Source: Hydrogenovibrio kuenenii DSM 12350
GTDB lineage: Bacteria; Pseudomonadota; Gammaproteobacteria; Thiomicrospirales; Thiomicrospiraceae
Reading direction: 5' to 3'
Assembly: GCF_000526715.1 (NCBI RefSeq)
Contig: NZ_JAGP01000001.1
Location: 1,116,001-1,180,000 of the forward strand
DNA: 64,000 nt
The notes beneath the pieces are model-generated. The model saw only the letters and a program-made list of their open reading frames with translations, was not told the origin of the DNA and searched no databases. The translations under genes and the position numbers were made by a program. Below, piece after piece: positions 46,228 through 48,265 of the stretch; position 1 is the first letter of the stretch, and each line of letters opens with the position of its first letter.

Positions 46228-46887
46228 ATGAAACTATTATTCGATTTTTTTCCTATCCTTCTATTTTTTATCGCATTTAAGCTGTTTGGCATTTATGTCG
46301 CCACCGCCGTTGCGATTGCCGCTTCTGTGCTTCAAGTAGCCTATGTGTACCTAAAAAACAAACGCATTGAAAATATGCATTTAGTTACCTTGGCATTGAT
46401 CGTTATCCTAGGGGGTGCCACGCTTATTTTTCATGATGAAACTTTCATTAAATGGAAGCCTTCAATTGTTAACTGGGGGTTTGCGCTTGCATTCTTAGGT
46501 AGCCATTTCATAGGTAAAAAACCAATCGTCCGTCGATTGATGGATCAAGCTCTCTATTTACCTGATAAAGTCTGGAATCGACTAAGTTATATGTGGGTAG
46601 TCTTTTTCATCCTCTCTGGTATTGCCAATATTTATGTTGCCTATCATTACGATACGGACACTTGGGTCAACTTCAAATTATTCGGTCTCATGGGGCTTAC
46701 ACTAGCGTTTATCTTGGTTCAGGGGCTTTATATTTCCAGATATATTCAAGATGACAAAGTGACCAATGAGGTAAATGAAAAAGCGATGGAAGCCCTTGCT
46801 GATGTAGAGATGGATTCTGTTGTCGTTGCGCCTCACTCATCAGAAAATAAAGATGACCAAAAAACAACTTCAACCGATACAAAATAA
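46228..46887 (+). CDS. yciB: Inner membrane septation protein YciB (IspZ)
   Basis: The 219-residue protein has five to six membrane helices and the family start KLLFDFFPILLFFIAFKLFG, cited in part, with FIKWKPSIVNW and WVNFKLFGLMGLT. YciB is linked to cell envelope synthesis and septation. The C-terminal 40 residues are a charged extension. yciI follows after 26 bp, as is common in proteobacteria. Confidence 0.93.
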   Translation: MKLLFDFFPILLFFIAFKLFGIYVATAVAIAASVLQVAYVYLKNKRIENMHLVTLALIVILGGATLIFHDETFIKWKPSIVNWGFALAFLGSHFIGKKPIVRRLMDQALYLPDKVWNRLSYMWVVFFILSGIANIYVAYHYDTDTWVNFKLFGLMGLTLAFILVQGLYISRYIQDDKVTNEVNEKAMEALADVEMDSVVVAPHSSENKDDQKTTSTDTK

Positions 46888-46913: not shown

Positions 46914-47213
46914 ATGTATTACTCAATTTTTGCTTATGACGTTCCAAATAGCCTACCCTTGCGTGCATCAGCACGACCAGACCACATTGCCCGATTAAAA
47001 GCGCTTTCAGAAAGCGGTCGACTACTTGTTGCGGGCCCTAACCCTGCTATTGACACTGAAGAACCTGGTGAAGCTGGTTTTACAGGCAGTTTGATTGTTG
47101 CAGAATTCGATTCTTTGGACGCTGCACAAACATGGGCAAATGCTGATCCTTACCTTGCGGCAGGCGTTTATGAGAAGGTTGACGTCAAGCCTTTTAAAAA
47201 AGTGTTACCTTAA
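46914..47213 (+). CDS. yciI: YciI-family protein
   Basis: The 99-residue ferredoxin-like fold protein has [35 protein letters not shown] and [13 protein letters not shown], the YciI pattern with the conserved His and Asp. Its enzymatic role is unknown; the fold resembles dehalogenases and muconolactone isomerase. Confidence 0.92.
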
Positions 47214-47270: not shown

Positions 47271-47732
47271 ATGTCGAATGTGGCTTATCTGATTCCAAAA
47301 CGTAATCAAAAACTTCAACTGGCTGAAGTAGCCCCCCTTGAAATGGTTGATGTAGATTTCGTAAAAATTCCATTACTTGGTTGGACATCAGCCGGACAGC
47401 CTATTCAAATGGAAATGGATTACGACACCGTCTCCGTTCCCACAACCATGGTTAAAAAAGAAACTTTTGCATTGCGTGTAAAAGGAAATTCGATGATTGA
47501 AGAAAACATCGAAGATGGTGATATCGTTATTATTGAACGCCGCTCTACAGCTGAAAATGGTGAATCCGTTGTTGTTCGTATCAACAATGAAGAAGTGACC
47601 ATGAAAAAGTTCTATATCGAAAAGAACGGTATACGTTTGCAGCCTGCTAACAGCGAAATGGAACCTATCTACATCACTAACGAACAAATTGAAATTTTAG
47701 GTATTGTAACGGGAATCCTTCGGCAGCCATGA
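47271..47732 (+). CDS. LexA-like S24 autoprotease without a DNA-binding domain
   Basis: The 153-residue protein is almost only the LexA/UmuD S24 peptidase fold. It has an Ala41-Gly42 cleavage site (WTSAGQP), the catalytic serine in KGNSMIEENIEDGD (Ser74) and the catalytic lysine in EEVTMKKFY (Lys112). The first 35 residues are too short for the LexA winged helix and do not resemble one. The sequence is closer to the LexA C-terminus than to UmuD. A GAGGT site precedes the ATG, and no umuC is adjacent. Its end overlaps the next gene by four bases. Confidence 0.85.
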   Translation: MSNVAYLIPKRNQKLQLAEVAPLEMVDVDFVKIPLLGWTSAGQPIQMEMDYDTVSVPTTMVKKETFALRVKGNSMIEENIEDGDIVIIERRSTAENGESVVVRINNEEVTMKKFYIEKNGIRLQPANSEMEPIYITNEQIEILGIVTGILRQP

Positions 47733-48265
47733 ATGAACAGCCTCCCTCATCCATTGCAACAAATAATGAAAGCTTACTGCTACTGGTAACGGGTGGCACG
47801 CTAGATAAAAACTACGATGCGATTTCTGGCGAGCTTAACTTTTCAACTACTCACCTTCCCCAAATTCTATCTCAGGCTAACATCACCCTTGATTTGTCTA
47901 TTGAGACGTTAATGCTAAAAGACAGTCTTGAAATGACGCAGACTGATCGTGAATACATTGCGGAAACCTGTGTCAAAGCTGCCCAAACTCGCATTCTGAT
48001 TACGCATGGTACAGATACCATGACAGAAACAGCCGATTATTTAAGCTCTATTGGCCAACTATCGGGAAAAACGCTTGTTCTTACCGGCGCTATGAGACCT
48101 TTTATGCTGGGGGATTCTGATGCCAGCTTTAACCTTGGCGCTGCAATCATGGCTGCCAACTTATCTTCAAATGGTGTCTATATCGTAATGAACGGTATGC
48201 GCTTTGATGCCAACAATGTTCGCAAAAACAAATTGCTTGGTGAGTTCGAACGACTTCGACGCTAA
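47729..48265 (+). CDS. Single-domain asparaginase-like protein
   Basis: The 178-residue protein is the N-terminal domain of type I/II asparaginases: the first threonine motif LLLVTGGTLDKNYD and the second ILITHGTDTMTETA are present, with VLTGAMRPFMLGDSDA. The C-terminal domain is absent. Short proteins of this size recur in proteobacteria, so it is probably a real family rather than a truncation. Its ATG overlaps the stop of the LexA-like gene (ATGA), indicating coupling. The substrate is unknown. Confidence 0.85.
   Translation: MNEQPPSSIATNNESLLLLVTGGTLDKNYDAISGELNFSTTHLPQILSQANITLDLSIETLMLKDSLEMTQTDREYIAETCVKAAQTRILITHGTDTMTETADYLSSIGQLSGKTLVLTGAMRPFMLGDSDASFNLGAAIMAANLSSNGVYIVMNGMRFDANNVRKNKLLGEFERLRR

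Follow-up and report, generated by a model that had tools for sequence, protein, structure and literature searches.

SOS biology is usually framed by LexA, UmuD and the phage repressors. The N-terminal arm of UmuD is described as carrying docking sites for partner proteins and for Lon and ClpX (PMC5342242), and we therefore use UmuD as the working model for the protein considered here, a short S24 autoprotease of Hydrogenovibrio kuenenii. RecA-independent behaviour has been reported for IrvR, a LexA-like protein (PMC7101444). The gene that adjoins the short S24 gene belongs to a group described in a separate literature: RrA is presented as the prototype of short-chain asparaginases, which are attributed to about 7% of bacterial species (PMC10949315).

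The locus lies in a 64,000-nucleotide stretch of the H. kuenenii DSM 12350 genome that was analysed as a whole (hereafter the window), and its features are listed in Table 1. The genome measures 2.45 Mb and is scored as 100% complete, and Hydrogenovibrio sp. JE_KL2, with 95% protein identity, is its closest named relative in a scan of contigs.

Table 1. Features of the short S24 locus; positions are counted from the first nucleotide of the window.
Feature	Position	Strand	Remarks
ispZ/yciB (septation protein A), at the head of the conserved block	46228..46887	+	PF04279, 5.4e-69
yciI, upstream in the conserved block	46914..47213	+	PF03795, 3.4e-29
Short LexA-type S24 autoprotease gene, 153 aa + stop	47271..47732	+	Peptidase_S24; TIGR00498 lexA
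N-terminal tail, residues 1-41, conserved motif around AYLIPKR	47271..47393	+	Predicted release by self-cleavage
Ala41-Gly42 codons, predicted self-cleavage bond	47391..47396	+	Invariant in 53 family members and 29 others
Ser74 codon, catalytic serine	47490..47492	+	Invariant in 53 family members and 29 others
Lys112 codon, catalytic lysine	47604..47606	+	Invariant in 53 family members and 29 others
Short-chain (RrA-type) asparaginase gene, 178 aa	47729..48265	+	PF00710 N-terminal domain alone, E 1.8e-27

An earlier note on this DNA had described a LexA-type autoprotease that lacks a DNA-binding domain, and the protein proved to be real, neither an artefact nor UmuD. Peptidase_S24 (PF00717; E 5.4e-32, residues 34-146) is its sole Pfam domain, and a Pfam profile search of the protein returned no winged-helix LexA_DNA_bind domain. 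The same note had asked whether a frameshift might conceal a winged helix upstream. This is excluded because the 57 bases that separate yciI from the S24 start cannot hold one; moreover, the same short form recurs in 53 intact relatives. The NCBI lexA model TIGR00498 is passed narrowly (115.2 bits, cut-off 110.95) through profile positions 79-201 only, and the UmuD model PRK10276 is missed (77 bits, cut-off 110). An AlphaFold prediction made from a 35-row alignment is confident for the core, with block means of at least 85 for residues 61 to 150, and is of low confidence for the greater part of residues 1-50, cleavage loop included. The top Foldseek matches are LexA structures, among them LexA on RecA filaments (8trg, 8gms), followed lower down by the lambda repressor core and UmuD'.

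Within the bacterial family to which H. kuenenii belongs (hereafter the host family), the gene was found in 54 of 62 genomes, intact in 53 and split in one. Homologues are missing from the remaining eight (G001-G004, G018, G019, G036 and G054), and some of these absences are unproven because the G036 contig begins inside the asparaginase gene and the G003 and G019 assemblies are 81 and 84% complete. The split copy (L068 in G020, C1:1404227-1404684) consists of two overlapping frames, which reflects either a frameshift or a sequencing error. The Ala-Gly site, Ser74 and Lys112 sit where the earlier note had placed them and, like Leu7 and Pro9 of the tail, never vary among the 53 intact proteins. 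Other tail positions are kept in most of these proteins (Tyr6 and Ile8 in 51 each, Lys14 in 52, Arg11 in 46 and Lys10 in 40), and residues 15-30 are mostly variable, with exceptions such as Glu24 (52). When the window gene is compared with seven relatives, pN is 0.015-0.074 and pS 0.55-0.88 in the core, and the tail evolves more quickly, with pN 0.03-0.20 and pS 0.44-0.77. Silent sites are nearly saturated in these comparisons, and amino-acid changes are few.

The conserved tail is not confined to the host family. A loose regular expression for the AYLIPKR-like motif, composed after the sequences had been inspected, matches 53 of 53 host-family proteins and 26 of 29 short proteins from elsewhere (27 if L197 is read from a GTG start); L220 and L221, both from outside the host family, lack it. 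Shuffled tails and long S24 proteins served as controls for this expression. Shuffling yields 1.7 matches per 53 and 1.0 per 29, and one of 31 long S24 proteins matches within its first 33 residues.

To place these proteins more broadly, a sample of 369 genomes representing the class Gammaproteobacteria was searched with a profile, which matched 33 genomes at 1e-30. Four of these belong to the host family, 26 from 15 other families carry the short S24 protein (E below 1e-54), and three hold only an ordinary LexA. Three further loci, from a Pseudomonadales assembly, an uncultured gammaproteobacterium and Litoricola, each place the short S24 gene beside a gene that we recognise as dusC-like. The cleavage site and the Ser-Lys dyad are invariant in all 29 of these short proteins from outside the host family. 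Full-length LexA, defined by a LexA_DNA_bind match over the cut-off, accompanies the short protein in 16 of the 26 genomes and is absent by this measure from 10, and three of the 26 (G118, G247 and G277) also hold a separate UmuD. Thus, the short S24 protein is a third protein, present in addition to LexA and UmuD.

Automated naming can obscure this distinction. Eight short S24 proteins from outside the host family were scored with both models: none passes for UmuD (70-78 bits, cut-off 110), and seven pass for LexA (116.6-122.8 bits), with L122 missing at 110.1. The TIGR00498 cut-off therefore admits eight of the nine short proteins tested, the window protein included, although all of them lack the DNA-binding domain. 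It follows that this model would name short S24 proteins LexA, and that a pass does not settle membership of LexA for any of them. Public genomes probably name many members of the family LexA.

Phylogenetic analysis of the S24 core separates the short proteins from both better-known groups. In a first tree of 81 rows, which included 18 of the 53 host-family proteins, 47 short proteins lie on one side of a branch with SH-aLRT 98. A second, more careful tree omitted five of the 81 rows, namely a UmuD, a duplicate LexA and three S24 repressors of genus g2 that sit on long branches, and again gave a short clade of 47 rows, with support 97/98 and a stem of about 1.0 change per column. Its sister is a group of 17 LexA proteins (support 84/92), and UmuD is placed elsewhere. 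A topology in which LexA forms a single clade is not rejected (p-AU 0.301, from 122 columns and with the bootstrap unsettled). The short S24 proteins are a clade of their own, apart from LexA and UmuD, and constitute a class-wide family. Genus g2 (L222, L223 and L224) is the only host-family genus with LexA_DNA_bind matches (E up to 0.001); its S24 repressor joins UmuD in the tree through a very long branch, a placement that may be an artefact.

The short protein has also changed less than LexA in the same genomes. Core identity is higher for the short protein than for LexA in all 55 pairs formed by 11 genomes that hold both (median 73.6 versus 56.6%; the pairs are non-independent). Sixteen genomes hold both proteins; of the five that were left out, G096, G149 and G331 have a LexA of the other type, and G278 and G404 are near copies.

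The earlier note had suggested looking for a full LexA elsewhere in the genome, and the search of the whole H. kuenenii genome gave no LexA_DNA_bind (PF01726) match over the cut-off. At E values up to 1, two S24 proteins are present, namely the short protein and a 222-residue protein that is encoded divergently from umuC (C1, about 1450.4 kb) and scores 163.5 bits on the UmuD model, which it passes. The claim in the earlier note that umuC is absent consequently holds for the surroundings of the short S24 gene and fails for the genome, where umuC stands with its own UmuD elsewhere. Because the genome has this UmuD-umuC pair and no recognisable LexA, the short S24 protein is an additional component. 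The UmuD itself (L002:1486-2154, minus strand; C1, about 1449.6-1450.3 kb) is extended at its N terminus by about 95 residues with the pattern GGxRxGAGRKxGSG...TKVxRVPxSKV. No Pfam family matches this extension, which by analogy with UmuDAb could be a DNA-binding part. A candidate operator between this UmuD and umuC, GTAAC-N9-GTTAC, was discarded, as it occurs in only one of 16 loci scanned, the H. kuenenii one.

We give slightly better than even weight to the reading that the window protein belongs to a distinct, class-wide gammaproteobacterial family and serves as a stand-alone self-cleaving switch that resembles UmuD in its action and is not UmuD. Under this proposal, the family would descend from a LexA-like ancestor, and the protein would be produced constitutively as a dimer. 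Self-cleavage at Ala41-Gly42 would be set off by stress, most likely signalled through the RecA-ssDNA filament; RecA-ssDNA is kept only as the most likely trigger because of the behaviour of IrvR. Cleavage would free the core from its tail, which is about 41 residues long. A partner protein might dock on this tail, or a protease such as Lon or ClpXP might do so, in which case cleavage would alter the binding partners of the core or its lifetime. The short protein would not repress genes directly, and the asparaginase would stand outside the switch. A more specific version, that this is a third cellular S24 damage switch, present throughout Gammaproteobacteria next to the repressor LexA and the polymerase V subunit UmuD, that is constitutive, is triggered by RecA, sheds a docking tail, controls a protein partner and persists without LexA, is in our estimation a serious possibility that falls somewhat short of being probable.

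Alternatively, the short protein might modulate other S24 proteins by forming mixed dimers with LexA or UmuD, either diluting a repressor or delivering its partner to cleavage or ClpXP, as UmuD does for UmuD'. UmuD is reported to hand its dimer partner to ClpXP (PMC5342242), the short S24 gene lies divergent from lexA in two genomes (G162 and G278), and the H. kuenenii genome does hold a UmuD. However, no LexA_DNA_bind match over the cut-off was found in 10 of the 26 class genomes or in the 58 host-family genomes outside genus g2, and the short protein is only 34% identical to its own UmuD over residues 46-149. We therefore judge such a role unlikely.

Another reading holds that the protein is a UmuD orthologue whose umuC was lost or came to lie elsewhere and which continues to serve polymerase V. 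The two proteins are similar in size and layout, with a short arm followed by an S24 core, and the UmuD model does give the window protein 77 bits. That score is well below the cut-off, which the other S24 protein of the genome, divergent from umuC, clearly exceeds; UmuD stands apart on the tree; and three genomes hold the short protein and UmuD together. These observations make orthology with UmuD quite improbable.

The association with the asparaginase gene requires closer consideration, as the earlier note had treated the two genes as coupled. They share the bases ATGA, as that note had pointed out, and this four-base overlap occurs in 12 of 46 host-family loci, so that it is not a general feature of the pair; the count covers 46 of 53 loci because our script assigned no asparaginase start in seven. 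The pair is conserved in relatives, with the order yciI-S24-asparaginase found in 54 of 54 host-family loci that carry the S24 gene (one yciI is cut by a contig end). In 53 of the 54, ispZ is also present, the remaining locus being cut by a contig end. An EamA transporter gene lies downstream of the asparaginase gene in the window. Outside the host family, one genome (G118) has the complete ispZ-yciI-S24-asparaginase block.

The wider counts point in the other direction. The short asparaginase occurs in 59 of the 369 class genomes. Outside the host family, 55 genomes have the asparaginase and 26 the short S24 protein, and only G118 has both, against about four expected by chance (26 x 55 / 365). 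At 25 other asparaginase loci, examined for up to 1.5 kb on each side, no yciI, ispZ or S24 gene was found. Four host-family genomes (G002, G003, G004 and G054) keep ispZ, yciI and the asparaginase gene joined in the absence of an S24 gene. We conclude from the counts outside the host family and from these S24-less blocks that the pairing is a lineage-specific gene order and not a general module. The proposal that the two proteins form one functional module, for example for stress-dependent control of asparagine hydrolysis, has adjacency at 54 of 54 host-family loci and in G118 and the occasional ATGA overlap in its favour. With 25 of 26 short-S24 genomes lacking the asparaginase, 54 of 55 asparaginase genomes lacking the short S24 protein, and yciI and asparaginase adjacent in the four S24-less genomes, we regard it as even less probable than orthology with UmuD, and the functional coupling put forward in the earlier note is not borne out. 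The asparaginase is most likely a mere neighbour of the S24 protein and not its functional partner.

As an enzyme, the neighbour is unremarkable. It was correctly described in the earlier note as a one-domain asparaginase, and its closest solved relative by profile match is PDB 8uoo (9.7e-49), which we take to be RrA, partly from its chain length. Five residues (T24, Y29, T95, D96 and K166) are invariant in 19 aligned asparaginases, and by these residues the active site is complete. Their spacing is identical to that given for T16, Y21, T87, D88 and K158 of RrA (PMC10949315).

Finally, the idea that the gene is a decaying LexA that has lost its DNA-binding half, to which the narrow pass of the lexA model (115.2 versus 110.95 bits) and the missing LexA of this genome might be thought to lend support, has a negligible probability and is effectively excluded because amino-acid changes are few against nearly saturated silent sites, to which can be added the invariant catalytic residues, the conserved tail, a class-wide clade that changes less than LexA, and the presence of LexA beside it in 16 of 26 class genomes.

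The chemistry of the protein makes a connection with SOS plausible, but upstream LexA boxes are missing in most lineages scanned. Exact CTGTN8ACAG or GTTCN7GTTC boxes, the latter a type known from alphaproteobacteria, occur upstream of the short S24 gene in none of 53 host-family loci and in one of 26 class loci, that of L213, whose upstream region also precedes a divergent lexA. The same scan applied to LexA genes recovered exact GTTCN7GTTC boxes in 8 of 24 (0.1 expected) and exact CTGTN8ACAG boxes in 3 of 24 (0.03 expected). Boxes with one mismatch are no more frequent than expected in the host-family and class sets, and a wider scan of 300 bases found an exact CTGTN8ACAG in none of 82 loci. 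The three Litoricola-like loci all have a CTGTN8ACAG box with one mismatch (0.2 expected). As far as these two types of box go, the short S24 gene is thus mostly outside LexA control, although some loci may be exceptions. A promoter scan was uninformative (five sites, 8.3 expected). Separately, the eight LexA genes with exact GTTCN7GTTC boxes (L264, L270, L273, L274, L277, L288, L290 and L291) all belong to the 17-member LexA group nearest to the short S24 clade.

Gene neighbourhoods outside the host family differ widely, and comparison of these loci revealed no consistent neighbour that would name a partner. They include genes for SCO1/SenC, PCuAC, PS decarboxylase, rhodanese and NadA, an RNase D-like exonuclease together with DUF3549, and the dusC-like gene. 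A phage origin was considered and rejected. The viral scan returned one relative, whose frame extends upstream into a stretch that we read from its letters as helix-turn-helix-like, and all phage and plasmid matches are below 60% identity. Among the 15 plasmid matches listed from 3469 records, 13 are annotated as LexA and two have no feature. PADLOC gave no defence-system match.

Our searches also uncovered, in several class genomes, five S24-like proteins of 103-129 residues (L295, L296, L297, L299 and L300) that have a GxSM serine and an arginine at the site of the catalytic lysine. These were considered as UmuD candidates and dismissed, given that the arginine replaces lysine in all five and that the one tested scores 30 bits on the UmuD model; it fits neither that model nor the LexA model. 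They probably represent a different S24 family that does not cleave itself.

The autoprotease half of the locus is more interesting than was first stated because the short S24 family is class-wide. An autoprotease family that diverges less than LexA, and that is retained in a bacterial family in which we found no LexA, points to an important output that may have been missed, in part because the NCBI lexA model would name the members LexA. A lexA annotation alone does not establish that a protein is an SOS repressor. In the literature searched, mostly papers outside subscription journals, we found none on a gammaproteobacterial LexA-type protein that lacks a DNA-binding domain, which is weak evidence of novelty.

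Among the known systems, UmuDAb, FddR and the Bacteroidetes SOS regulators resemble the short protein in being S24 proteins of lineages that lack a canonical LexA. However, these are described as DNA-binding repressors (PMC8565304, PMC13148647), and no such domain was found in the short S24 protein. The neighbouring asparaginase does not differ in kind from RrA, with which it shares a single N-terminal domain and five matching active-site residues; it is an ordinary member of its group that is unusual only in the S24 gene beside it. With UmuD (PRK10276; PDB 1umu, 8gmt) the short protein has in common a short N-terminal arm, an S24 core and the presumed release of the arm by self-cleavage, whereas it falls below the UmuD cut-off, lies apart from umuC and on a different part of the tree, and coexists with a separate UmuD. 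The best match in fold and sequence is LexA (TIGR00498; PDB 3k2z, 1jhf, 8trg), with the same C-terminal S24 core, Ala-Gly bond and Ser-Lys dyad. Unlike LexA, the short S24 protein carries a conserved tail, about 41 residues long, in place of the winged helix, and its relatives form a clade of their own.
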